Positions 14,955 through 29,465 of a stretch of DNA of 64,000 bases are shown in pieces. The DNA is taken from positions 4,245,001 through 4,309,000 of the forward strand of contig NC_015275.1 in assembly GCF_000178835.2 (NCBI RefSeq). Reading direction: 5' to 3'. The translations under genes and the position numbers were made by a program. The notes under the pieces are model-generated. The model worked only from the letters and a program-made list of their open reading frames with translations, was not told the origin of the DNA and did no database searches. This stretch comes from Cellulosilyticum lentocellum DSM 5427 (lineage in GTDB: Bacteria > Bacillota > Clostridia > Lachnospirales > Cellulosilyticaceae). Numbering within the stretch: position 1 is the stretch's first letter; every line of letters begins with the position of its first letter.

Positions 14955-15263
14955 TTACTCACTCTCCATTTGGAAATCTATACATTTTCGATTACATAAA
15001 ATAGACCTTCCAAACTGACTTATCCTTTGATGCTCCTTATGGGTCTGGTAAGAAGCCAAAGCTTCCTCAGATTCAAATTCACTAATTAATATAAAATCAA
15101 AATCTCCTGTTTTTAGGGGCTCAGTAACTACCTTCATTGAGATTATTCCTGGAATAAGTAATTTTAACCCCTCTAATTCCTGCTTAATCTTTTCTGCATT
15201 TACATGCTTGTCCGCGTTAGAAAGACCCTCTATAAAATTCCACGCAACAATATGCTTAATCAT
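14955..15263 (-). CDS. Dabb (stress-responsive A/B barrel) domain protein
   Basis: Small dimeric alpha/beta-barrel protein of about 102 residues, with no assigned substrate. It starts MIKHIVAWNF and has the family features KIKQELEGLKLLIPGI, DFILISEFESEEALASYQ and HQRISQFGRS. I prefer ATG 15263: AGGAG lies 8 bases upstream and it gives the canonical MIKHIV start, whereas ATG 15272 abuts the AGGAG. Monocistronic; members often occur near metabolic or stress genes, which the context does not narrow. Confidence 0.82.
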   Translation of the reverse strand: MIKHIVAWNFIEGLSNADKHVNAEKIKQELEGLKLLIPGIISMKVVTEPLKTGDFDFILISEFESEEALASYQTHKEHQRISQFGRSILCNRKCIDFQMESE

Positions 15264-15328
15264 AACCCTCATCTCCTACATTTAAAATATAATTATCAAA
15301 AATACAACTTATTGAGCAAGTTGTTATT

Positions 15329-15375
15329 AAAAGTAACCCTCTCTGTTATTGTGATAAAAAATAGAGGTAACTTTT
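15329..15375 (-). terminator. Terminator of the biosynthetic cluster
   Basis: The stem formed by 15329-15342 and 15363-15375 (AAAAGT/ACTTTT ends) overlaps the stop of the phosphopantetheinyl transferase gene. A second small hairpin (ACAACTT/AAGTTGT) follows downstream on the minus strand. Confidence 0.6.
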
Positions 15376-16066
15376 AGTTATGTAGCTTATCTAATTTTGT
15401 ATAAATAGTTTCTAAAGACATGTATGTTGTAGATGCCATTTCACTATCTTCTGTACATACCGCTAATTTATGTTCCTCATCTATATTGATCATGTGTAGC
15501 ATAACGGCGTTTGTTTCTTGTGTTCTTATAAAGGCATGTTCCTTTTCGTAAATTAATTGAAAAGAGTTTATTGGTATGGCTAGTCCCCTTCCTTTATACT
15601 TAATATAGCTTTCTTTTAAGGTCCATAATGTATAAAATGCCTCTCTTTGTTGACGTCCTTTTAGTTTTGCAATAGATAGATACTCTTCTTTTAAAAAAAA
15701 TCTTCTAGCAATGTCTAAATCAGCTGCTTCTATTTGCTGTATATCCACACCAATTTCCTTATTACTCCATGCACATACCACCCACTTTCCTGAATGCGAA
15801 ATATTAAAAAATTGATTTGTACTATTGCTTAAGTAGGGTTTTCCATACTCATTGTATTCAAGATGTACTTCTTCTTTTTTAAGATGTAACTTCGTACAAA
15901 CTAAATAGTTTACTAAAACACCTGCATATAAGCTCCTTTTAGCATCTGCTTCGAATTTATATCTATTAACTCTTGCTTTTCTTTCGTTCGAAACATAATT
16001 AAATAACTGTTGATATAAATCGTTACTTATTGGTTCATTAATATCTACCATATAAATTTCTGCCAT
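15374..16066 (-). CDS. Sfp-type 4'-phosphopantetheinyl transferase
   Basis: Transfers the phosphopantetheine arm of CoA to a serine of carrier proteins, activating them. 230 residues, the usual Sfp size. Visible motifs are FNISHSGKWVVCAW (about 87-100), GVDIQ (106-110, magnesium-binding Asp108) and LWTLKESYIKYKGRG (148-161) with the catalytic Glu/Lys pair. It is the last gene of the minus-strand cluster and would load the two NRPS carrier domains and the free carrier protein encoded upstream. Start ATG has AAGGGAATC upstream. Confidence 0.93.
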   Translation of the reverse strand: MAEIYMVDINEPISNDLYQQLFNYVSNERKARVNRYKFEADAKRSLYAGVLVNYLVCTKLHLKKEEVHLEYNEYGKPYLSNSTNQFFNISHSGKWVVCAWSNKEIGVDIQQIEAADLDIARRFFLKEEYLSIAKLKGRQQREAFYTLWTLKESYIKYKGRGLAIPINSFQLIYEKEHAFIRTQETNAVMLHMINIDEEHKLAVCTEDSEMASTTYMSLETIYTKLDKLHN

Positions 16067-16096
16067 AATTAGATTCCCTTACGAAATAGCAACAGC

Positions 16097-17185
16097 TCAA
16101 TTGCTACATCCTATAAATTCTGTGTTTTCTAGTAACTCATTTAATACGTCTTCTACCTCTAAGATTTCTTTTAAAATAGAGCTATATGTACTATCAAATC
16201 TTTCTTTTCCTCTTATCTTGTTTTTTTCAATTAAGTTCTTGCACTTCACCCATAATTTTTCTGACTTCTTTAGTGCTTCAAATAATCTTTCATCTACACC
16301 CATAACCTTTTCTTGTTTCACTAATAGCTGCAGGCCTAGTGCTAATAGTCTTCGTTTCTTGTCTAATATTGAAAATAGCCAAGGTAAAAAGCCTAGTAGA
16401 TTAACAGATTCACCTTCCACTCCTGCATTTAAATCAATGCCTTCACCTTCGCTTAGCTCCATTAATTTACAGATAGCTGCTCTTCCTGTGTACTGGACAT
16501 TCCCTGTTTCTAATGTTTCTTCCGGCTTTGAATAACTCTTGATAGACTCTTCGATAGTAGCTTTAACTCTAGTTTGGAGCAAGTCCTCTTGGTCCCAGTT
16601 GAAACTTATGGTATGACATCTTAAATAATGCTTAAATATCTCATTCATTTTATCCTTAGCCATTACCCCAATATCTTTTCTTCCTTTATAAGGAATAAAA
16701 TAATCATAATTAATTTGTGCAAAAGGATCTTCTAAGTAATAATAATTTTCTTCGTCGTAATGTAAGATAAGAAATACATGACCTGGTTCAAATTCTTCAA
16801 TATTATATCCCAGAGTATAGTTAATACTAAAGTCCAATAATTCTGTTATAGTATGTACAATGACAGCTTCCCCAGAATCTAGTAAGCTTTGTAGCAAAGG
16901 AATTGCTGCTTCATTTTCCTCTTTATAATCATTCACTATGTAGTTATATTGCATTTCTTCTATAGAATTGGTGAATATTTCTTTGATCTTGTTTTTTTCA
17001 TTTAATATGATGAACAAGGATAAATCATCGATTAAAGAATAAATTAGCTCATCCGCTCTGTTCGTTTGATTCTTGGCAATTTCATAAGCACATGTTAGTA
17101 AACAATAATAGCTCATATCATAAAACATATCTTTCTTGCCTTCTTTATCGAAGTAATATTCCTTCTCTAATAGTTCCTTTGACAT
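16097..17185 (-). CDS. Putative BtrH-like acyl/peptidyl transferase or papain-like hydrolase
   Basis: 362-residue cytosolic protein of uncertain family. The N-terminal ~200 residues have a pattern seen in BtrH-like/peptidase-fold proteins: an aromatic-rich YDMSYYCLLTCAYEI segment with candidate nucleophile cysteines, SGEAVIVHTITELLDF, and EPGHVFLILHYDEENYYYLED with a conserved-looking His. The last ~340 residues of the neighbouring NRPS show the same order of features (ENIDRGYYVILHLDEYDL, then HFVHSSLIYGYD). The rest is helical. ATG 17185 follows AGGGGGGATACG; the TTG at 17203 has no site. BtrH of butirosin synthesis moves an acyl chain from a carrier protein to an amine; a similar release or transfer role is inference. 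Confidence 0.45.
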   Translation of the reverse strand: MSKELLEKEYYFDKEGKKDMFYDMSYYCLLTCAYEIAKNQTNRADELIYSLIDDLSLFIILNEKNKIKEIFTNSIEEMQYNYIVNDYKEENEAAIPLLQSLLDSGEAVIVHTITELLDFSINYTLGYNIEEFEPGHVFLILHYDEENYYYLEDPFAQINYDYFIPYKGRKDIGVMAKDKMNEIFKHYLRCHTISFNWDQEDLLQTRVKATIEESIKSYSKPEETLETGNVQYTGRAAICKLMELSEGEGIDLNAGVEGESVNLLGFLPWLFSILDKKRRLLALGLQLLVKQEKVMGVDERLFEALKKSEKLWVKCKNLIEKNKIRGKERFDSTYSSILKEILEVEDVLNELLENTEFIGCSN

Positions 17186-17224
17186 CGTATCCCCCCTATT
17201 CAAAGCATTGTTTTTCTAGACTTA

Positions 17225-17473
17225 TTACTGATTTCTTCGTATAATTTCTTCTATTTTTAAACAAAGGCTATTAAAACTCATATCATCTTCAATATCTAAG
17301 TCGTCATCCTCCACTTGGATTTCAAACTCATCTTCAATTAATGTTATCAACTTTATAAAGCTGATAGAGGTGATTATTAAATCGTATTTTAATAGACTCT
17401 CATCTAGGATGTTTCTCTGCTGGGTTTCTGTAACGCTTGCTACTATCTCTCTTAATCTATCTCTAACTTCCAT
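17225..17473 (-). CDS. Free acyl/peptidyl carrier protein
   Basis: 82-residue acidic four-helix carrier protein. The attachment motif is ITSISFIKL with predicted phosphopantetheine serine Ser36, in place of the more usual DSL. Helix II (SFIKLITLIEDEFEIQV) is normal. It lies 2 bases after the acyl ligase stop, has an AAGGAG site, and is followed by the putative transferase gene. The likely roles are to receive an acyl or aminoacyl group from that ligase and to be primed by the cluster's Sfp-type enzyme. Confidence 0.82.
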   Translation of the reverse strand: MEVRDRLREIVASVTETQQRNILDESLLKYDLIITSISFIKLITLIEDEFEIQVEDDDLDIEDDMSFNSLCLKIEEIIRRNQ

Positions 17474-17475
17474 TT

Positions 17476-18915
17476 TTATCTCCTTTTTATTTTATTAGAT
17501 GCTGTTTTTTCTATACTATCTACACAATAGAACTTTTTTGGTGTCTTGTAACTAGCTAGTACTCCCTTGCAATAGTCTAATAAAACTTGTAAATCAAATA
17601 CTTTACCTGGTGCGATTACTACTTCGGCTACTACTATTTCTCCAACACTTTTACTTACTTCTGCATAAACCTTTATTTCGCTAATCATTTCGTGCTTCTG
17701 AATAATAAATTCTACTTCTTCTGGGAAGATATTACGTCCTCCTGAAATAATAACGTTCTTCTTTCTACCTTTAATCCAAACATAGCCTTCTTCATCCATT
17801 TCTCCTATGTCTCCTGTACGGAACCAACCGTCTTCTGACAACGCGCCTTCTCTACCATAGTACCCTAACATAATATACGGACTTTTAATGATGATTTCAC
17901 CTGGCACATTATTAGGTAAGCTCTTGCCTTGATCATCCACTATCTTAATTTGTACATTTTTAAATGCTTTTCCTACCGACTCTCCTTTATGATCCCAATC
18001 ATCATATTTCTTATGACATATAGCTGCTGCTTCTGACATTCCATATAATTGCAGCATCTTAGTTGGTTGTATTTTTTCCTTAATTAGGTTAAAGGTCTCT
18101 TCATCGATTTTCTCTCCACCTATGAGCACACATTCTAATGAAGCGATTTGATGTCTCATTGGATCATAGGAAGTTGCAATTGACTTTAGTAAAGAAGGTA
18201 CCATAGCACAACTTGTAACTTTTTCTGTGTCTACTATATTAAAAAATTTATTAATACGAATTTTTCCATCATACATAATACTGGTTAACCCAATACAAAT
18301 ATTGAATAGTAATTGTTGCACATTTATAAATGCAGCACATAGTGGTACTATAATAAGTGATATGTCTTCCTCTGTCATAGGGATATACTCTCTAAAAGCA
18401 ACTATACTCTCAGCAAGATGATTATGACTATGCATTACTAGCTTAGAGTCACCAGTGGTACCTGATGTTGGGAAAATAATAGCTCCTTGATTTCCATCGC
18501 CTTGATTTTCAAGGACTATTTCTGATGGCATAGTAGATATCTCAAGTGGCAATTCATCGATGTAGATAATGTGCATCTGCTTTTCTAAATTCTGAAACTT
18601 TTCCCTGTACTCACTTAGTGTCACTATAGCTTGTGTCTGGCTTTCTGTCATAATATCTAATACTTCATTCTCTGTTAATTGTGTATTAAAGGATACAATG
18701 ATTTTCCCTGCATATAAAATTCCATAGTAACCTATAACATAATTAATAGAATTAGGTATAAATAAGCCTATTAACTCCGAAGTTTCTTGGGTTAGAATTT
18801 CTGAAAGTGCATAACACTTTTGATTAAGATGACGGTATGTTATTGCTTGTTCCTTATATTTTACAGCTATACGATCACTGTACTGATGCTTTAACAAGTA
18901 CTCTGATAAATTCAT
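17476..18915 (-). CDS. AMP-forming acyl/amino acid ligase (ANL superfamily)
   Basis: Adenylates a carboxylic acid and passes it to CoA or, more likely here, to the adjacent carrier protein. The A3 core FPTSGTTGDSKLVMHSHNHL is near residues 148-165, the aromatic/Thr motif QLYGMSEAA near 295, GWFRTGDIGEMDEEGYVWIKG near 370, and the hinge and C-terminal lysine SNKIKRR at the very end. 479 residues is slightly short because the C-terminus stops right after the catalytic Lys. It shows fatty/aryl acid ligase character rather than an NRPS A domain. It lies 98 bases after the glycosyltransferase stop, with no terminator between. Confidence 0.85.
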   Translation of the reverse strand: MNLSEYLLKHQYSDRIAVKYKEQAITYRHLNQKCYALSEILTQETSELIGLFIPNSINYVIGYYGILYAGKIIVSFNTQLTENEVLDIMTESQTQAIVTLSEYREKFQNLEKQMHIIYIDELPLEISTMPSEIVLENQGDGNQGAIIFPTSGTTGDSKLVMHSHNHLAESIVAFREYIPMTEEDISLIIVPLCAAFINVQQLLFNICIGLTSIMYDGKIRINKFFNIVDTEKVTSCAMVPSLLKSIATSYDPMRHQIASLECVLIGGEKIDEETFNLIKEKIQPTKMLQLYGMSEAAAICHKKYDDWDHKGESVGKAFKNVQIKIVDDQGKSLPNNVPGEIIIKSPYIMLGYYGREGALSEDGWFRTGDIGEMDEEGYVWIKGRKKNVIISGGRNIFPEEVEFIIQKHEMISEIKVYAEVSKSVGEIVVAEVVIAPGKVFDLQVLLDYCKGVLASYKTPKKFYCVDSIEKTASNKIKRR

Positions 18916-19013
18916 ACTTTATTCCTCTTTTCTATTTGTTATATTGTTTATAATTTTTTAGTTTTGTTGTTAAATTTATATCTTTTAGTACCGCTAGGCT
19001 CACTCTTTATGCT

Positions 19014-20123
19014 TCAAATCTGATTGTCACACACCTCTTCTATTTCTTTGGTTTGCTTAGAGACAGGATAATACTTCACCACTTTTCCACGAACATCTTG
19101 TAATTGTATCCAGATATCTAAATCTGTTGTTTCTACATAATCATAAATAATGATATTGGTCGTTTCTAACTCTAAAGCTTGCTGTATTACTTCCTTTATT
19201 TCCTCTAATGTTTCTTCTTCCTTAAAGTTAATAATCATGCAATTTTCTGTAGAAGATAAAGGTGTTTCTATAGATTTATACCTTGTTGCAATACTTCTAA
19301 ATAATTGTTTTAGCTTATCATTATCTAGTCCCATAGCTTGTGGATGTTTTTTTATAAAGACTTCAGAATTGTAATCCACCTCTTCTTCTTGATTCTTTTG
19401 TACAAACTTGCCTTGCTTAATACCGTGGAATTGATGAACAACTTGATTTTTACTATTAAAAACAATTTTTAAACCTAATTCATACATACGGTATATAAGT
19501 TCAATATCTTCTATTCCCCACTTTTTTAGATCCTCATCAAAACCATTAACTTTATTAAGCCATATTTTAGGAACTGCTAGATTACATGTAAAACAATATA
19601 AAAAGGGTGCTTTCATTGTTGCTGCATTATATGATAAATCATTAAATACCTCTTCTCGAAATTCAGGTATTGCCCCCTTATCTTTAAAATAGTCATTATC
19701 AAATAGGCTACCGTTTTCACCTGCCATATCCTCTGCCGGTTCTTGTAGTAAGATTCTCGTTCCTACCACTATCATATCTTTCTTCAAGCGATAACAACGG
19801 TCTATTTCCTCCAAAAAATTAGGTTTAACAATTATATCTGCATCAATAAAAACGATGTATTCCCCTTCTGCCTTTGCAATTCCAGCATTCCTGGCTTTAG
19901 CCCTACTAGACATCTCATTTCTTTCTAGATAAACATACTTCATGCTATATTTCTTATTAATATTGTTAATAGCTTCATAGGTATCTCTATCTGAACCATC
20001 ATCAACAACGATAACCTCATAATCATCTCTGTCTATGGGTGTCTGGTGGTTTAATGCAAATAAGGCATTTCTTAGAAGCTTTTCATTGTTGTATGTAGGA
20101 ATAATAAAACTATATTTAATCAT
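19014..20123 (-). CDS. GT2-family glycosyltransferase
   Basis: GT-A fold inverting glycosyltransferase, 369 residues. N-terminal IIPTYNNEKLLRNAL, VIVVDDGSDRDTYEAI, the DAD metal site (Asp94-Asp96 in FIDADIIV) and the acceptor-side GFDEDLKKWGIEDIELIYR are all present. Past residue ~290 a C-terminal extension has no recognised domain. It begins 15 bases after the NRPS stop with a strong AAAGGAGGGAGG site, so it is cotranscribed. It may glycosylate the peptide product or a linked lipid; the donor sugar is unknown. Confidence 0.85.
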   Translation of the reverse strand: MIKYSFIIPTYNNEKLLRNALFALNHQTPIDRDDYEVIVVDDGSDRDTYEAINNINKKYSMKYVYLERNEMSSRAKARNAGIAKAEGEYIVFIDADIIVKPNFLEEIDRCYRLKKDMIVVGTRILLQEPAEDMAGENGSLFDNDYFKDKGAIPEFREEVFNDLSYNAATMKAPFLYCFTCNLAVPKIWLNKVNGFDEDLKKWGIEDIELIYRMYELGLKIVFNSKNQVVHQFHGIKQGKFVQKNQEEEVDYNSEVFIKKHPQAMGLDNDKLKQLFRSIATRYKSIETPLSSTENCMIINFKEEETLEEIKEVIQQALELETTNIIIYDYVETTDLDIWIQLQDVRGKVVKYYPVSKQTKEIEEVCDNQI

Positions 20124-20138
20124 CCCCCTCCCTCCTTT

Positions 20139-23100
20139 CTAATTTGTGCTTTTCACATCTGGAGTATATGTTAAAAGCTTTCGCAGCAAAGTCTCTTCTT
20201 TCTTAGACATTTGCTTAAGTTCATTAATAGTATTTAAGATTGTTTCTTTTTGCCCCTTATCTAAAGGAATGTCTAAATCTTGCAAGGCCTTAAACTTCAA
20301 CCTTACTACGTTAAAGGCTTGTACTAATCCTTTATAAGCTTCATAAGTATCTGTAAATTCTAAAGTGACATGATAGTGCTCACCAATATAGCTAAAGCGT
20401 TCTAATAGGCCTACCTTATGTTCATAGATCAAATGAATAGCACGATAATCAATGCAAATTTTTTCTTCTAACGTATTTTCTAGCCCTTCAAGCATTACAT
20501 CATAAACTTTAGTCCCATAAGCAACAAACTTAACAGGAAGTCCCAAATTATACAGTGTATATCCATCACTATATCCTTCTATATAATCGCTTAACTTTTC
20601 CTTGAATCGTCTTAAGCTAAAAGGAAATGCTTGCTCTGGTGTTTTGGGTTTAATGAGCTGCAGCGCAGACCATTCACACCAATGCGCACTTTCTTTGTAA
20701 TATAACTTTCCTGCCTCATACGCTTTCATAATGGTTGCTTCGTCATAAATTAAAGGTTTAAATGTCATTTGGTCATCGAAACTGATAAGATAAATTAGTT
20801 TTTTGCTAATGTCATACCCATAAATTAATGAACTATGAACAAAGTGTTCTTTTTTATAAGCCCATTTGTTTGGTAAGTCATATTCATCCAAATGTAAAAT
20901 GACATAATAGCCGCGATCGATATTTTCATGAATATAAGTAATGATGTTATCTTCATGACTAAGTAGGTTATAGCCTAAGCAGATTACATCTGCCACATCT
21001 GCATAGTTGTCATAAGGTTCTAGATAGTTAAGTTCAATATATCCTTTTTCATTTTTGTAAGAAAAAATCTGAACAAAATTGCTGTAATACCATCCATAGT
21101 AGGTTTCATAGGCCAGTATAATGCACATAGGTAAGCTTCTATGTAAATAGGTGGTCATTTTTCTTTGCATACTTACTTTTAGTAAAACTGCACTTGCTGT
21201 TTCCTGTGTACTTGCTACTTCTTCCATTTCCTTATGTATTAAAATAAGCTTATGGTTTTCTATATAGCTCGCTAAATCCTCCACGGTACGATGTGCATAA
21301 AGTATCTCAATAGATATGTCCCAACCTTCCTTTAATAGGTTCGCTTGTAGCGTAATAAGGCTTAATGAGTCTGCACCTATCTCAAAAAAGTCCTCATCCT
21401 TTTTTATACTTGGGCAACTAAAGCTTGTTTTACATATTGTCTTTAGTTGCATTTCCATAGGTGATAACTTTTCTACCTCTGTAGCTACTCCATTAGAGGG
21501 TTGATAGTTTAATAATGCTTTTTCATCAATTTTACCGTTAGGGGTAAGAGGCATTTGAGATACATTAACAAAGTAACTTGGTACCATATAATAAGGTAGT
21601 CTGGACTTTAACGCCTTACGTAATCTTCTAACCTGTATGGGTTCATATGCCACATAATACGCATAAAGCTGAGTGTTCTGTCCTTCTATTTGAGGTAGCA
21701 CAACACATTCTTTTATTCCTTCTAGCTCTACAATTGTGTTTTCTATTTCACCTAATTCTACACGGTACCCTCTGATTTGAACTTGATCATCCATTCGTCT
21801 TATAAAATCCACCTCACCGTTAAATAGCCATCTTCCTAAATCTCCTGTATGATAGAGCTTTTCTCCTGGACAATATGGATTTTCTATAAACTTTTCTTTG
21901 GTTAACTCCGCATGATTTAAATAGCCTTTAGCAACACCTCTTCCGCCAACACAAATTTCTCCCTTAACACCTATAGGTACAAGCTTAAGGTATTTATCAA
22001 CTATGTAAACATGGCAATTGCTAATAGGCTTTCCTATTGTTATTTTTCTTTGACTACTTACTTCTCTTAAAATGGTACTAGCTACTGTATTTTCAGTAGG
22101 ACCATACTCATTAGTTAATTCTACTTCTGGAAGTATCCTTTCACTTAACTTCACCGTCTCCACATCTAATCTATCTCCAGCAACACACACTACCTTCAAC
22201 TGATTGTTATATGGAGTTAGGTGGCTACTTAATAAGATACTCTTATATAAGGCTGGTACCATTACAAAGTGAGTAATATGTTCTTGTATAATCTCTTTTG
22301 CCAAATAACTAGGGTCTTTGCTCTTATTATTAGTAACAAAAATTGTTGTTGCACCTGCAATAATAGGTGAAAAAAAGCTAGCCACAAATCCATCAAATGC
22401 AACTGAAAATGTTTGTAATACTTTATCCTTGCTATTAAAATCATATTCTGCTCTTCTCCATAAGAGTGTGTTAACTACATTTTCATGTGCTACCATAACA
22501 CCCTTAGGTTTACCTGTAGAACCAGAGGTATAAATAACGTAAGCTAAATCACTAGGTTCATTATCTTTTTTTAACAAATCCCCCTTTTTATAAAGCAAAG
22601 GATCTTCTATATCTATTATGGTTCCCTTAAAATCTACTACTGACTTTAATTTATCTTGAGTTAGTAGTATCGTCACATCACTATCTTGCAAAATATGACT
22701 AACCCTTTCTTTAGGGTAAATAGGATCAATAGGTAGATACGCTCCTCCTGCCTTTAAGATTCCAAACAAACTTATAATCATTTCTAAGGAGGTTTCCGCA
22801 AATACACCAACTATTGTATTTCTCTTTACCCCTAACCCTTGTAACTTGCATGCCAATGCATGAGCTTTTTCATCTAATTCTTGATAACTTAACTTCTTAT
22901 CTTCTAGTTGAACAGCAATTTGATTAGGTGATAACCTCACTTGCTCTTCAAATAATTCATGTACTAAATACGACTGTCTTGTAATGCTATAATCATTATT
23001 AAATAGCATCATATAATGCTTATCTCTGTTGCTAACTGCATCTATGTCTTTGAGCAAAATATTTGATTGTTCTAAAATGGTCTCTAAAACCATTTGAAAA

Positions 23101-26100
23101 CTTGCTGCTAAACGACTAATGGTATCTTCATTATATAAGTCAGTGCAGTAGTTAAATTCAAATATCAACTTGTCTGCTAATGGCTGTGTAACAAGTGTAA
23201 GGTCGAAGCGCGATGCTTTGTTCTCTATGATATACGGTGTAGTAATAAACCCCTCTAAGCTTAAATACTCTTCTTCAGTATTTTGCAAAACAAAGGCTAC
23301 ATCAAATATAGGGTTATGACTAGCATCTTTTACTAAATTAAGCTTAGCGGCTAATTTATCAAAAGGATAGTTTTGATTATCATAAGCTTCTAATAGCTGT
23401 TGTTTTGTTTCCTCTAAAAATTGTCCAAAGGATTTATCCCCACTGGGATATAAGCGTATTGGTAGTGTATTTACAAACATGCCTACTATTCCTTGTAATT
23501 CCTCTTGATCTCTCCCTGCGATTGGCATACCTATAATTAAGTCATCCTGCCCACTATACTTGGCTAAAACAACGGCATAAACAGCTAATAGCACCATATT
23601 CAGGGTAATACGATTTTGCTCACAAAATTTATCAAGTACATTCATAAGTGTGTGTGATACTTCTAGGTAATGACTATTACCTTCAAAGCTCTGCTTATAA
23701 GGCCTATTCTTATCTAGAGGCATTTCTAGAATAGGGATTTCTCCACTAAAATGCCTTAACCAATAGTCTTCTTGCTTCTTAAGCCTATCATTATAGGCCT
23801 CACTTTGTTGCCAATATGAGTAATCTGTATACTGAAATGCTACTTCTTGTAACTCTTCACCGTTATAGCATTTCCCCAGTTCTTCTATAACCAAACCACA
23901 TGAAAAACCATCTGCAATGATATGGTGTACATCTATTAGTAATACATACTTTTCCCTTTCCAATTCATACACCTTAGCCCTAATTAGTGGTGGCTTAGTT
24001 AGATCGAAAGGCTGAATGTATGATTGAATATCTCCAGTTAGCTTATCATCCTCTACCGCTTCATAATCTAAGCAAAAGGAAACGCTTTCATGAACTTTTT
24101 GAATTACCTCACCTTCTTGCATTATAAAACTTGTGCGAAAAGCAACATGTCTACTAATAATCGTTCGAAAGGCTTCTTCTAGGCGGTTAATCTCTAATTT
24201 ACCTTTAAGAAGAAACGCTTCTGGCATATTATAATTAATACTTTTTGAAGCTAGACTCGTTAAAATATATATTCTCTTTTGCGCTGAAGATGCCAAGAAA
24301 CAATCTAGTTGAGGTGCCTTATCCAAAGAATCTATAGCTATTTTAGGTAAGGTCTGTTTATGTTTATTTTGAATAAGCTGGCTTAAACCTTTTGCAGTAG
24401 GATAAGTAAAGATATGTTTTAAGTCTAAATCAATCTCATATTTACTTTTAATAGCGTTAATAACCTTAGTTGCTCTTAAACTATGCCCTCCCATTTGGAA
24501 AAAGTCGTCATTCGCTCCTACTCTCGTTACGCCTAACACCTGGCTAAATAGGTTACATATGGCTTCTTCTACTTCATTCTCAGGCGCTACATAACTACTA
24601 ACATAAGATATAGGTGGCAATTGGCGCTTATCTAATTTACCATTCGTAGTTCGTGGTATGTATTGTATCTGAAGCATTCCATTTGGAATCATATAATCTG
24701 GCAAATTTTCTTTCAGTCGTATCTTTAGTAAATCTATGTCTATAGGTTGCTCTGATACCAAATAAGCACATAAATAGCTTTCATCAAACTTATTTTTCTG
24801 TACTACTACTACTGCCTCTTGAATGAATGGATATTTTCTGATGACCATTTCAATTTCTTCTAATTCAATACGCAATCCTCGAATCTTGACTTGCTCATCT
24901 ATACGTCCTAAGTAATCCACATTTCCATCATCTAGCCATCTTGCCAAGTCACCTGTTCTATATAGTTTTCCCTCTCCAAAGGGATTAGAAATGAACTTTT
25001 CTTCTGTTAGCTCTGTGTGATTTAAGTACCCTTTTGCAACACATGTACCGGCAATACATAATTCACCAGGCACTCCTATAGGTAGAAGTCTTCCCTTGGA
25101 ATCCAATATGTATATCTGCGTATCTCCTACAGGTTTACCTATTGGTAATCGTCCTTTTTCAGTCCCTTTATATTCATAAGAAAGTGCATTAATAGTACAT
25201 TCGGTAGGTCCGTAGGTATTATAAACTTGTCTATTATTTTTCCAGTATTTAAGCACATCTAAACGTGCCTGTTCTCCACCTGATTCTAGAAGCCTCAAAC
25301 TTCTACAGCTACTGGCCTCTAATTCATTAATAACTGTTGGTGTTAAGCCTGCAAAGGTTACTTGCTTCTCATTAATATAAGCTCCTAAAGCCTCCATGTT
25401 CACTATATACTTATCTGTTGCTATACACACAGTTGCCCCACTTAAAAGAGCTCCAAAAATATCCCATACCGATTGATCAAAGGAAATGCTTGCAAACTGC
25501 AACAGAATATCCTCAGAAGTGATATGATACCACTTTTGATAAACACTAACGACGTGGCAAAGATTACGTTGAGTAATCATAACACCTTTAGGTTTCCCAG
25601 TTGTTCCTGAGGTATAAATTAAATAAGCTATATCATCTAGTTTATTGACTATTGTAAGATTATCTCTCCATTGTTCTTTGCTTATATTAATTTTTGCTAA
25701 ATTTACCTTTTTCCATGGTCCCTTTAGACGATCTAAAGAAACGTCCCCCACAATTAATTTGGCCTTACAATCTTTTAAAATGAACTCAATTCTCTCTTCT
25801 GGATATTTAGGATCAATAGGAACATACGCTCCTCCAGCTTTTAGAATACCTAGGATTCCTTCTAATACCCTAATTGAACGTTGCATAATAAGACCCACAT
25901 AATCATTGGGTTTTAGACCCTGGTTTCTTAAATAATGTGCTATTTGATTAGCCTTTTCATTTAACTGCTCATAAGTGATGGTTTGCTCCTCGCAAATAGC
26001 GGCTATTCCTTTGGGATTCTTCTCTACTTCTGCTTCAAACCATTGTATAATGGTTTGCTCAGTATCTACCTTGCAGGTCTTATTAAAGTGCTTTTTTATT

Positions 26101-26630
26101 TGAAATGAATCTTCTTCTGTTAGCATCGTTAATGTTTGAACTGATTTAGAAGCCTTGTGTATCATCTCTTCTAGTAGCTTTTGATAATGTCTTTGTAACC
26201 TCTTAATGACTTGCTTTGTAAAAAGAGTAGTATCGTAGTGCCAAATTAACGCAACTCCTGCCCCCTCCTCTTTCATGACTATCGCCAGCTTACCCGATAA
26301 ACTTTCTTCTCTATATTGTTGTGCTTTCATAAAGCATACTTCTGCTACCTGCGCACTTTTCTCCTCAAGGCTCCTTATACACTCCTTCTGGATTTCCTGA
26401 TAAAATGTCATACAAATCTTATCTTCAAATACATTTCCTACCACAGGATATACTGGTATATCCTGTACTTTGCCATCTAATATTTCCTCCAAAGATATCC
26501 CAATACTAATCTCCTCTTGTCGTGTATATTTACTAAGAAGTATAAATAGCCCGCTTAGTAAAAATGCTTCCACACTAAGATGTATTTCTTTTACAAACTT
26601 CTTTATAGATGCACTTACTAAATGGTCCAA
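20139..26630 (-). CDS. Two-module nonribosomal peptide synthetase with unusual C-terminal domain
   Basis: 2163 codons from TTG 26630. In order: the C-terminal half only of a condensation domain without HHxxxDG (1 to ~190); A1 (YTSGTTGKPKG near 342, TGDLARWLDDGNVDYLGR); T1 (FFQMGGHSL, Ser near 713); full condensation domain (HHIIADG near 903); A2 (YTSGSTGKPKG near 1371); T2 (FFEIGADSL, Ser near 1752); then a ~370-residue domain (1790-2163) that is not a thioesterase or reductase and shares features with the protein at 16097. It should join two amino acids. The 5' end is abnormal: the frame is open up to the ABC-gene stop with no ATG, GTG or TTG before 26630, and TTG 26630 has no ribosome site. 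An ATG overlapping that stop (26716) is out of frame. Confidence 0.9.
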   Translation of the reverse strand: MDHLVSASIKKFVKEIHLSVEAFLLSGLFILLSKYTRQEEISIGISLEEILDGKVQDIPVYPVVGNVFEDKICMTFYQEIQKECIRSLEEKSAQVAEVCFMKAQQYREESLSGKLAIVMKEEGAGVALIWHYDTTLFTKQVIKRLQRHYQKLLEEMIHKASKSVQTLTMLTEEDSFQIKKHFNKTCKVDTEQTIIQWFEAEVEKNPKGIAAICEEQTITYEQLNEKANQIAHYLRNQGLKPNDYVGLIMQRSIRVLEGILGILKAGGAYVPIDPKYPEERIEFILKDCKAKLIVGDVSLDRLKGPWKKVNLAKINISKEQWRDNLTIVNKLDDIAYLIYTSGTTGKPKGVMITQRNLCHVVSVYQKWYHITSEDILLQFASISFDQSVWDIFGALLSGATVCIATDKYIVNMEALGAYINEKQVTFAGLTPTVINELEASSCRSLRLLESGGEQARLDVLKYWKNNRQVYNTYGPTECTINALSYEYKGTEKGRLPIGKPVGDTQIYILDSKGRLLPIGVPGELCIAGTCVAKGYLNHTELTEEKFISNPFGEGKLYRTGDLARWLDDGNVDYLGRIDEQVKIRGLRIELEEIEMVIRKYPFIQEAVVVVQKNKFDESYLCAYLVSEQPIDIDLLKIRLKENLPDYMIPNGMLQIQYIPRTTNGKLDKRQLPPISYVSSYVAPENEVEEAICNLFSQVLGVTRVGANDDFFQMGGHSLRATKVINAIKSKYEIDLDLKHIFTYPTAKGLSQLIQNKHKQTLPKIAIDSLDKAPQLDCFLASSAQKRIYILTSLASKSINYNMPEAFLLKGKLEINRLEEAFRTIISRHVAFRTSFIMQEGEVIQKVHESVSFCLDYEAVEDDKLTGDIQSYIQPFDLTKPPLIRAKVYELEREKYVLLIDVHHIIADGFSCGLVIEELGKCYNGEELQEVAFQYTDYSYWQQSEAYNDRLKKQEDYWLRHFSGEIPILEMPLDKNRPYKQSFEGNSHYLEVSHTLMNVLDKFCEQNRITLNMVLLAVYAVVLAKYSGQDDLIIGMPIAGRDQEELQGIVGMFVNTLPIRLYPSGDKSFGQFLEETKQQLLEAYDNQNYPFDKLAAKLNLVKDASHNPIFDVAFVLQNTEEEYLSLEGFITTPYIIENKASRFDLTLVTQPLADKLIFEFNYCTDLYNEDTISRLAASFQMVLETILEQSNILLKDIDAVSNRDKHYMMLFNNDYSITRQSYLVHELFEEQVRLSPNQIAVQLEDKKLSYQELDEKAHALACKLQGLGVKRNTIVGVFAETSLEMIISLFGILKAGGAYLPIDPIYPKERVSHILQDSDVTILLTQDKLKSVVDFKGTIIDIEDPLLYKKGDLLKKDNEPSDLAYVIYTSGSTGKPKGVMVAHENVVNTLLWRRAEYDFNSKDKVLQTFSVAFDGFVASFFSPIIAGATTIFVTNNKSKDPSYLAKEIIQEHITHFVMVPALYKSILLSSHLTPYNNQLKVVCVAGDRLDVETVKLSERILPEVELTNEYGPTENTVASTILREVSSQRKITIGKPISNCHVYIVDKYLKLVPIGVKGEICVGGRGVAKGYLNHAELTKEKFIENPYCPGEKLYHTGDLGRWLFNGEVDFIRRMDDQVQIRGYRVELGEIENTIVELEGIKECVVLPQIEGQNTQLYAYYVAYEPIQVRRLRKALKSRLPYYMVPSYFVNVSQMPLTPNGKIDEKALLNYQPSNGVATEVEKLSPMEMQLKTICKTSFSCPSIKKDEDFFEIGADSLSLITLQANLLKEGWDISIEILYAHRTVEDLASYIENHKLILIHKEMEEVASTQETASAVLLKVSMQRKMTTYLHRSLPMCIILAYETYYGWYYSNFVQIFSYKNEKGYIELNYLEPYDNYADVADVICLGYNLLSHEDNIITYIHENIDRGYYVILHLDEYDLPNKWAYKKEHFVHSSLIYGYDISKKLIYLISFDDQMTFKPLIYDEATIMKAYEAGKLYYKESAHWCEWSALQLIKPKTPEQAFPFSLRRFKEKLSDYIEGYSDGYTLYNLGLPVKFVAYGTKVYDVMLEGLENTLEEKICIDYRAIHLIYEHKVGLLERFSYIGEHYHVTLEFTDTYEAYKGLVQAFNVVRLKFKALQDLDIPLDKGQKETILNTINELKQMSKKEETLLRKLLTYTPDVKSTN

Positions 26631-26715
26631 AAGCTGGTAGCTTGTTCTAGTAACTTCTCCTATTTCGGGTAGTTCATTAGTGTCTATCAGCAGGTTCCAA
26701 TGAATGCTAGGTTCA

Positions 26716-28446
26716 TTAACTTACAGCATCTGTATCATCCTCTCCTGTATTTTTCATTTGATGTTCAGCATGATAAAGTTTGTAAAACACCTGTCTCTTT
26801 TCTAGCAGTTCTTGAAATCCCCCTTGTTCTACTACTCGTCCGTCTTCCATCACAATGATTCGGTCATATCTTTTTAATAGGCTATCCATCAACTTGTGAG
26901 TAACAGAAACAACAGTTACATCTTGCAAATTAAGTATTGTATCTTCTATAGCATAAGCAACTTTACTATCTAATGAAGATGTATATTCATCTAATAGCAA
27001 GATTGGCTTTCGCTGAATCAGAGCCCTAGCAATAGCTACTCTTTGACGTTGTCCACCTGATAGCTTGTTACCATCCTCTCCTAGCGTTTCGTCCTCTCCA
27101 TAGGTCCTTTTATTTAAGAATTCATTTATAGCACTCTTCTGCATTGCTTCTTCTATCTCAGATTCTTGAAAGCATTTCCCTAATGTTATGTTTTCTTTAA
27201 GGGATTTATCAAACAAATAGACATTCTGATGAATGATAGCTAATTGCTGGTATAACGAAGACTTTAAAACTTCCTGTAACTGTTGACCGTCTATAGTAAT
27301 ATGTCCACTCCTTGGTATATACTCGTCTAAAAGTAGCTTTAATAAAGTAGATTTACCACTACCACTAGCTCCAACAATGGCATACTTCTTATTCTTTTCA
27401 AACTGAAGAGAAACACTCTTTAATATGTCATACCCCTCTTCGTAACCAAATGTCACATCTTCAACTTGTATACTACTCTTAAATTCCTTTAACTCAATAA
27501 ATCTATTTTCATCTACATCTTCAATATCTATAAAAGCCAGCAATCTGTCTTTTACAATTTGCATGCTTTTTATCATCGTTATTTTTTCTATAATCATAGT
27601 GATAGGTTCTCCTAAATTAACTCCAAGCTGTACAATGGCAAACAAGGTACCTATTGTCAAATTTCCTTTAATAACAAAATATCCACCTAACCCTATAGCA
27701 ACTAATTGTGTCATAATGCTTAAATAGCTAGCCAATGCATTAGTTCTAGAAGTTGCTTCAATGGCCGTATAATTTCTTTTCTCCACTTCCTTATTGCACT
27801 CTTGAAACTCTTCTATGATCTGATCATCCATATGATACGATTTAACGACCTCATATCCTAAAAACATATCTTTTAATTTCTTAGTTAACTCACTTAGTCC
27901 CTCACTATATCTGGCTCTTGTAGATGCTAACCTATTACCAAATACTTTAGGAATAAATAAAATGATAGTTGAAGTTAAAATCATGGCCAGAGCAATCCAG
28001 ATATTAAACCATATTAATACCCCTGTACTTCCAACAATGATCACTAGATCCATAACGATTCCTAATGCAGGATTAATATAATTCTTATCCATAAGATGGA
28101 TGTCATTTGTCAAACTCGAAAGATATACCGAAGTGTTTTCCTTATAAAAGCTAGTATAGTCTTGTCTAAATAAGCCCTTAAAAATTTTTTTCTTAAAGTG
28201 ACATAGTGTCTTGGTCATATAATAAGCTTCAATCGTCCGATTAAGATAATCCATCAACCCAACAATCACAAAATAGCCTATCGCCCATAAAATGGTCCTA
28301 TAAAATTGCTGGGAGTTTCCTGAGACTGCTGCATCTACAATACGCTGTAAGCAAATTGACACAGACACAAAAATAATTCCTATTAAAATTTTAAGCATAA
28401 AAACAATTGAAAATAGCAATTTATACTTCAGTATAATCTTCTTCAT
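26716..28446 (-). CDS. ABC exporter, fused membrane and ATPase domains
   Basis: Homodimeric type IV ABC exporter half-transporter, 576 residues. Six transmembrane helices span about 10-300. The nucleotide-binding domain has Walker A GASGSGKST (~360), the signature LSGGQRQRVAIARAL (~465), Walker B PILLLDEYTSSLDS (~485) and the switch His (VVSVTHKLMD). No N-terminal C39 peptidase is present, so it does not process leader peptides. It is the first gene of the cluster, behind a good promoter, and its stop overlaps an ATG by one base (TAATG). Likely exports the NRPS product and gives self-protection. Confidence 0.92.
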   Translation of the reverse strand: MKKIILKYKLLFSIVFMLKILIGIIFVSVSICLQRIVDAAVSGNSQQFYRTILWAIGYFVIVGLMDYLNRTIEAYYMTKTLCHFKKKIFKGLFRQDYTSFYKENTSVYLSSLTNDIHLMDKNYINPALGIVMDLVIIVGSTGVLIWFNIWIALAMILTSTIILFIPKVFGNRLASTRARYSEGLSELTKKLKDMFLGYEVVKSYHMDDQIIEEFQECNKEVEKRNYTAIEATSRTNALASYLSIMTQLVAIGLGGYFVIKGNLTIGTLFAIVQLGVNLGEPITMIIEKITMIKSMQIVKDRLLAFIDIEDVDENRFIELKEFKSSIQVEDVTFGYEEGYDILKSVSLQFEKNKKYAIVGASGSGKSTLLKLLLDEYIPRSGHITIDGQQLQEVLKSSLYQQLAIIHQNVYLFDKSLKENITLGKCFQESEIEEAMQKSAINEFLNKRTYGEDETLGEDGNKLSGGQRQRVAIARALIQRKPILLLDEYTSSLDSKVAYAIEDTILNLQDVTVVSVTHKLMDSLLKRYDRIIVMEDGRVVEQGGFQELLEKRQVFYKLYHAEHQMKNTGEDDTDAVS

Positions 28447-28536
28447 TTAATCTCACCCTCTTATCCTTCTCTTTCTTTAATCACACATTTGCTTCATTTT
28501 TAGTGTTTCTTTGTACTATTCAGTTTTTGCTTGAAA

Positions 28537-28565
28537 ATTTTAGGTAAACTTTAATTTAATGTCAG
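28537..28565 (-). promoter_or_regulatory. Sigma-A promoter of the NRPS cluster
   Basis: On the minus strand: -35 CTGACA (28565-28560), 17-base spacer, -10 TAAAAT (28542-28537). It would start transcription about 85 bases before the ABC exporter gene. Confidence 0.6.
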
Positions 28566-29109
28566 AATTTGTATTTCTTTATTATAAAATATATTACATA
28601 TAATACATTATTTTACACATATTTTTAATTGAATTTTTTGTCATTTTTATATATTAACTACATTTTTTACACTTAATTTAGTGTATTGTGCAATTCACAC
28701 AATATAATCAGATTATCTATCATGTATTATTTCATTTTATACAAAACAAAAAGTGTTATAAAAAGCCACTAAATGACAGCTACTATAACACCTTTATTGT
28801 AAAAATATTATTTTTCTGGTAAATAAATAGGTATGTTTGCCCATAGAGTACAAAAAAATCTACTAATATGGACTTAGATCATAAGATATAAAATAGCTAT
28901 ATGTATAAACTAAAACCATAAAATTTATACATAAAAATAATAAATTTTAAGCCTGTATTATTCACAAAAACATCTTGACACCTTATATCTATCCGAGTCT
29001 ATTTATTAGTCAGATATGAGATGTTTTTTACCTTCTAAATGATCAGAATCCTTATAAAAGGATAGAGTCTACCCCTCCCCATAGAACCTATGAGCTAGAG
29101 ATTTATGCG
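28566..29109. other. AT-rich gene-free stretch with two hairpins
   Basis: No convincing gene. It holds a GTGTTATA/TATAACAC hairpin (28753-28791) and a longer one (28966-29029: AAAAACATCT with AGATGTTTTTT, plus ATATCT/AGATAT) ending in a T run on the plus strand. The second lies beside the IS1380 relic and may be its old flank or terminator. Confidence 0.5.
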
Positions 29110-29121
29110 ATTTTAAAGGTC

Positions 29122-29465
29122 TTATTCCACTAACGGTAAAGCACATAGATTTTGCATTATCTCTTCAAATAGATGCTTGTATGGGTGGCTACTACAGAGT
29201 TTAAATGTTACTTTACGAGCGTGTCTAGCTACTTTGACAGCAACCTTAATAACTTTTTTGCGAATGGTTTCCATTTGAAAGCTCTGCACATCTTTTGCCA
29301 TACATAATCTTCTGAACCAATTGTTAAAGTTATAGGCAAGCATTGAAATCTGTAGCTTGTTTCTATTTGCTGCAAAGCTAGTGCTACTCATGCGGTCAAA
29401 TTCAAAACCATTTTGCCTTCTTTGATGAAGTTCTCCATCGTACCATGATTGTAATAAAATAAATT
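29122..29465 (-). pseudogene. IS1380-family transposase remnant
   Basis: Only the C-terminal ~105 codons of an IS1380-type transposase survive. The residues NGFEFDRMSSTSFAANRNK, QISMLAYNFNNWFRRL and RHARKVTFKLCSSHPYKHLF are the typical C-terminal end. Just upstream the frame is broken: NHGTMENFIKEGK lies in one frame and NGFEFDRM in another, with a shift near 29410-29425. Coding similarity stops near 29465. Full-length members are about 440 residues, so this is a dead fragment at the border of the NRPS cluster. Confidence 0.7.

Follow-up and report, generated by a model that had tools for sequence, protein, structure and literature searches.

A seven-gene cluster of the cellulose-degrading clostridium Cellulosilyticum lentocellum DSM 5427, lying in a stretch of 64,000 nucleotides of contig NC_015275.1 (positions 4,245,001 to 4,309,000, here called the window, whose own numbering is used below), encodes a two-module nonribosomal peptide synthetase (NRPS) that continues beyond its last carrier domain into a BtrH-like C-terminal domain (BTD). 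Sequence comparison across genomes identifies this ending as a recurrent terminus of clostridial NRPSs, in which a known fold and enzyme class appears in a new placement. A role in chain release or transfer is suggested because BTD follows the last carrier domain, no other release domain accompanies it, its Cys, Asp, and His are kept, and the ending recurs in NRPSs. The explanation that we favor, with about even confidence, is that BTD is a BtrH-type papain-like acyltransferase standing in the thioesterase's place, which would catalyze Cys-dependent peptidyl transfer from the second carrier domain (T2). The synthetase and its domains are as follows (C, condensation; A, adenylation; T, carrier; aa, amino acids).

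20139 to 26630, minus strand: NRPS, 2163 aa, C(partial)-A-T-C-A-T-BtrH-like by Pfam
26106 to 26630, minus strand: truncated starter C domain, C-lobe only, no HHxxxDG (the C-domain match covers only the model end, positions 375-452)
24606 to 26039, minus strand: adenylation domain A1
24372 to 24566, minus strand: carrier domain T1 (GGHSL)
23016 to 24296, minus strand: condensation domain C2 (HHIIADG)
21516 to 22988, minus strand: adenylation domain A2 (Pfam)
21231 to 21473, minus strand: carrier domain T2 (GADSL)
20142 to 21206, minus strand: BTD, 355 aa

The A, C, and T domains are present with their core motifs, and the single HHxxxDG of the protein is located in C2; the starter C domain is truncated likewise in Cellulosilyticum ruminicola. 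No thioesterase or reductase domain was matched by Pfam or NCBIfam in the approximately 355 residues after T2, in agreement with the initial annotation of the sequence. Reading the A-domain signature regions by hand gave no confident substrate. The start at 26630 (TTG) is uncertain, being the first listed one in a frame that is open up to 26720; position 26720 was discarded as a start since GTT stands there. The host genome is a single contig of 4,714,237 bases, and a search with the C-domain model found no other multidomain NRPS in it. One lone condensation-domain-like match lies elsewhere in that genome, within a 444-aa frame (G000:C1:4412759-4413421, locus L138).

Relationship to BtrH

Both BTD and a stand-alone protein of the same cluster, here called BTH2, had been linked to BtrH by the initial annotation, and profile comparisons for the two proteins, together with a fold search for BTD, bear out this relation. 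A search of the host genome with BtrH_N (PF14399) pointed to exactly two places, BTD and BTH2, at scores under the Pfam cut-off of 29.7 bits (17.8 to 21.6 for BTD and 23 to 23.5 for BTH2). Profiles were built from BTD relatives, in a 7-row and then a 30-row alignment, from BTH2 with two relatives, and from eight canonical BtrH proteins. BTD matched canonical BtrH in hhalign with a probability of 97.4% (E value, 1.4e-11) over an alignment extending through the C-terminal helices, and a second BtrH subgroup was reached at 97.1%. BTH2 matched canonical BtrH over its full length at 90.9% (E value, 1.1e-6), its Cys falling on the BtrH Cys, and another subgroup at 95.7%. The initial annotation had also described an ordered pattern common to the two proteins; both are indeed BtrH-related, but their direct profile comparison gives 6%, each being closer to BtrH than to the other, and they therefore represent two different BtrH branches. 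The two types seem to go together, since an unfused BTD relative adjoins a BTH2 relative in another genome (L124). On these comparisons, BTD, with remote but clear homology, and BTH2 are members of the BtrH superfamily and belong to different subfamilies.

BtrH is an acyltransferase whose donor is a carrier protein and whose acceptor is an aminoglycoside (PMC10318531); for proteins of its family, a role as transacylases acting on acyl carriers has been proposed (PMC2922099). The butirosin enzyme (BtrH_N PF14399 plus DUF4872) and BTD share full-length profile likeness, an aligned Cys and His, and the vDxyyL...H motif, and BTD sits beside a carrier just as BtrH works with an acyl carrier protein (ACP). 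BTD differs in its fusion to an NRPS, in scoring below the Pfam cut-off, and in the residue that follows His, which is Ser or Gly instead of Asp.

AlphaFold models were built from 3 sequences for BTD and 2 for BTH2. The BTD model was of moderate quality, with a predicted local distance difference test score (pLDDT) of 61.9 and a predicted template modeling score (pTM) of 0.58, and a Foldseek search with it gave E values below 0.001 only for AziU3 (1e-7) and the C11A/H128A variant of CtaG (9e-6). Phytochelatin synthase, a papain-like protein that forms an acyl-enzyme, was the next match. The BTH2 model was too poor for use, and its fold search returned mainly helical bundles. CtaG of Ruminiclostridium cellulolyticum (PDB 9qvp and 9qvl; Cys and His variants deposited) acts in closthioamide biosynthesis, where its assigned role is to move an aryl or peptidyl group between two carriers, onto an amine borne by the second (PMC6772006). 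It resembles BTD in a whole-chain fold match, in its carrier-bound substrates, and in the kind of host; it differs from BTD in being stand-alone and part of another pathway, and no sequence match between them was detected with the profiles used. The azinomycin protein AziU3 (PDB 8gs1 and 7wuw) is the best fold match and covers the full length; unlike BTD, it is stand-alone, was crystallized with AziU2, and belongs to other chemistry. Sequence searches of PDB with four profiles (A2, A5, A6, and A10) found neither CtaG nor AziU3.

Recurrence and the Cys clade

Comparison across genomes showed that BTDs with Cys at the presumed nucleophile position, which form a clade of their own, terminate NRPSs or carrier didomains in nine genomes from four families of the same phylum. 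The order C-A-T-C-A-T-BTD is shared by the window and C. ruminicola. C-A-T-BTD and C-A-T-C-BTD occur in G1008 and G969, C-A-T-C-BTD in G887, and T-BTD at a contig start in G700. Two genomes, G808 and G838, have tandem ends of the form ...C-A-T-BTD-BTD (L150:9931-18027 and L152:6529-14406), with Cys, Asp, and His in both copies. T-BTD didomain proteins in G909 and G969 (L160:9136-10566 and L159:9509-10942) are flanked on both sides by genes for EryCIII-like glycosyltransferases. More divergent cases include C-T-C-BTD in G170, where BtrH_N scores over the cut-off and Pro occupies the Cys position, and a partial match at the end of a 3588-aa NRPS in G1057. The NRPS of G105 (L130:9545-13870) adds to C-A-T a differently related BtrH-like domain that likewise has Cys, His, and Asp; it looks like a fusion that arose independently. 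Across the two genome sets that were searched (383 and 399 genomes), nearly all BtrH_N matches lie in frames of about 200 to 590 aa, that is, in stand-alone proteins. In 21 of 29 BTD loci, a carrier, a phosphopantetheinyl transferase (PPTase), or a ligase or NRPS domain lies within 10 kb, counting the fused T domain of L126.

Because the ending recurs in at least nine other synthetase genes from related bacteria, BTD looks like an overlooked way to finish or pass on a nonribosomal peptide. The initial annotation had proposed a new kind of release or transfer domain; position, the Cys/Asp/His set, and recurrence fit this proposal, but the architecture is not unique to the window. A literature search, with most subscription journals outside its reach, found no published report of an NRPS-terminal BtrH domain. 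Like the type I thioesterases of NRPSs, BTD follows the last carrier and may occur in tandem, a layout known for thioesterases, whereas its modeled fold appears to be of the papain-like Cys-His type and not an alpha/beta hydrolase. The X domain of glycopeptide antibiotic NRPSs is likewise an extra C-terminal domain near tailoring enzymes, but it has the condensation-domain fold.

The three presumed active-site positions of BTD are encoded as follows.

21123 to 21125, minus strand: Cys28 codon, presumed nucleophile, invariant in 23 Cys-clade members
20886 to 20888, minus strand: Asp107 codon, at least 90% conserved
20835 to 20837, minus strand: His124 codon, presumed catalytic, at least 90% conserved

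Cys28 aligns with the nucleophile Cys16 of canonical BtrH in the full-length alignment, within a low-confidence stretch. In the 30-row family, Cys occupies the putative nucleophile position in 4 rows and Ser in 20; the remaining rows have Ala, Gly, Thr, or Pro. The key motif of the initial annotation takes in its Asp/His half alone; both the presumed catalytic Cys and the Ser of most free relatives had been missed. After a class-level search, the Cys clade comprised 23 sequences (support, 100/99), of which 15 are fused to a carrier or NRPS and 8 are free, all of them with Cys. An earlier pattern drawn from four fused members, Cys only when fused, was dropped on account of the eight free Cys proteins in the same clade. 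The tree of the clade requires two state changes, which may be read as a single fusion and a single reversion to the free state. A large family of free Ser-type BtrH-like proteins was also observed (e.g., in L005, L008, L009, and L016), often with several members per genome and adjoining carrier-protein genes.

The cluster and its relatives

The initial annotation had listed seven genes, and Pfam agrees with their content and order. They are collinear on the minus strand (15374 to 28446), with intergenic gaps of 2 to 98 nucleotides. From 28446 down to 15374 they encode an ABC exporter, the NRPS, a GT2 glycosyltransferase, an AMP-forming ligase, a carrier protein, BTH2, and an Sfp-type PPTase. 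Besides the NRPS, the features are these.

28537 to 28565, minus strand: candidate sigma-70 type promoter, CTGACA-17-TAAAAT, 10/12 match
26716 to 28446, minus strand: ABC exporter, transmembrane part and ATPase in one chain (Pfam ABC_membrane, ABC_tran); orthologue in C. ruminicola
19014 to 20123, minus strand: GT2 glycosyltransferase (Pfam Glycos_transf_2, Glyco_transf_7C); relatives directly adjoin BTD in other genomes
17476 to 18915, minus strand: AMP-forming acyl ligase (Pfam); orthologue 52% identical
17225 to 17473, minus strand: free acyl carrier protein (PP-binding)
16097 to 17203, minus strand: stand-alone BtrH-like protein BTH2, 368 aa, with Cys34, His142, and Asp159; alternative ATG start at 17185
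15374 to 16066, minus strand: Sfp/AASDHPPT-type PPTase (Pfam)

The claim of one promoter for all seven genes can be kept only in a weaker form. The 10/12 motif is present, but such matches as a class are no commoner than in shuffles (70 observed versus 74.9 ± 8.5), so a single promoter is no more than plausible. Upstream of the operon, the palindromic stretches ACACTTAATTTAGTGT and GTGTGAATTGCACAATACAC (28640 to 28700) are possible operator sites. Dabb and MatE genes flank the cluster on one side and a transposase remnant of the DDE type on the other, just upstream (29122 to 29391).

The nearest genome with the cluster is that of C. ruminicola JCM 14822, in which gene order is kept except for the missing PPTase and proteins are about 52 to 64% identical. 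Apparent frameshifts, probably sequencing errors, split the ABC, NRPS, and GT2 genes in this draft (L042 and L044). The Dabb gene (14955 to 15272) was judged not to be homologous to the gene that lies downstream of the cluster in C. ruminicola, as the latter is FUSC_2-like. C. ruminicola has a second cluster (L044), with A-T-BTD on a contig that shows no C domain and with ligase, ACP, and BtrH-type genes together. The region L044:296-13102 holds the ligase, the ACP, a PaaK-like protein without a Pfam match, ABC genes, A-T-BTD, and GT2, along with two BtrH-type genes that exceed or approach the Pfam cut-off. The set of ligase, ACP, PaaK-like protein, BTD, and ABC genes was found again in L049 and L128 and partly in L134.

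Possible roles of the terminal domain

Under the favored explanation, the dipeptidyl chain on T2 would move to Cys28, giving an acyl-enzyme, and would then be passed, with the help of His124 and Asp107, to an amine or some other nucleophile; release would yield an amide or ester or be hydrolytic. The ligase would load an acid onto the free ACP, and BTH2 would move the ACP acyl group to an amine, for which the N terminus of the growing peptide is the likeliest candidate. Ligase, ACP, and BTH2 may thereby form a second acyl-transfer set, standing in for the starter C domain that lacks its catalytic half. GT2 would glycosylate the product or supply a glycosidic acceptor, and the ABC protein would export the product, which we infer to be an acylated or glycosylated dipeptide. 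Two features lend some support to such a product: a glycosyltransferase gene stands next to BTD in 8 of 20 loci, and the cluster carries the set of ligase, ACP, and BtrH-like protein.

Several observations weigh against this explanation. The Asp that follows His in canonical BtrH (D142), and that is present in BTH2 (D159), is Ser or Gly in the Cys clade. Outside the clade, Ser, Ala, or Gly takes the place of Cys in most free relatives, and Cys catalysis may therefore not be what the ancestral protein performed. Some clade members are free and have no carrier gene alongside (L151 and L153). The N-terminal region of BTD around Cys28 is poorly modeled (pLDDT below 50), and the protein that best matches the fold, AziU3, has a function other than acyl transfer.

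The distribution of glycosyltransferase genes bears on an unlikely but serious alternative, in which BTD is a docking platform that holds the glycosyltransferase by T2 for on-line glycosylation and the chain is released by another enzyme or by hydrolysis. A glycosyltransferase gene directly adjoins a Cys-clade BTD in the eight loci just mentioned, as a raw count, and lies within three genes of it in a ninth (L154). Relatives of the GT2 protein are the neighbors in the window, in L042 and L044, and beside the free BTDs of L151 and L153 (E values, 2e-104 and 2e-95); L164 has a GT2 beside BTD, and in L159 and L160 EryCIII-like enzymes flank T-BTD on either side. Such free BTD-GT2 pairs and the loss of the third catalytic residue would suit docking, but 11 of the 20 loci have no glycosyltransferase nearby, Cys is kept in 23 of 23 members with Asp and His in nearly all, and Pfam finds no other release enzyme in the cluster.

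A shade less probable is a condensing function in cis: BTD would cap the T2-bound chain at its amine (N-capping) with the acyl group that the ligase loads onto the ACP, and release would be by BTH2 or spontaneous. The aryl transfer from carrier to amine assigned to CtaG (PMC6772006), which matches the BTD model, would offer a precedent, and in L044 A-T-BTD comes with a ligase and an ACP and no visible C domain. At most loci, however, the NRPS is long, contains C domains of its own, and has BTD as its last part; the tandem BTDs are hard to explain in this way, and BTH2 is already there as a stand-alone partner for the ligase and ACP.

We consider it improbable that BTD modifies the bound chain without acyl transfer, for instance by ring closure as in its structural relative: AziU3-AziU2 is the best fold match and Ser-type free relatives are located in many carrier-protein clusters, but Pfam shows no aziridine-type partner gene in the cluster, and the fused clade keeps Cys, unlike the Ser types. 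That BTD is an inactive relic, as the degenerate residue after His and the Ala or Gly of some free relatives might suggest, is scarcely credible given that Cys, Asp, His, and further residues have been retained across deep divergence (by branch lengths) and the fusion is conserved in nine genomes.

Returning to the acyltransferase explanation, a wider and more tentative generalization is that Clostridia use a distinct Cys-dependent NRPS terminal domain of the BtrH/CtaG type, at times in tandem, that delivers the finished peptide either to an amine or to a sugar whose synthesis involves the neighboring glycosyltransferase; this is possible, though we lean somewhat against it. The route of chain release decides the product of an NRPS, and a terminal transferase of papain fold would explain clostridial NRPSs that have no thioesterase. 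BTD connects the stand-alone proteins BtrH, CtaG, and AziU3 with assembly-line enzymes, and its occurrence in nine genomes of four families would give a handle for genome mining. As a release domain, it might make amides or glycoconjugates. If the generalization is true, one more enzyme fold would be known to release chains in cis, and the glycosylated or amide-capped peptides of Clostridia would form a defined family.

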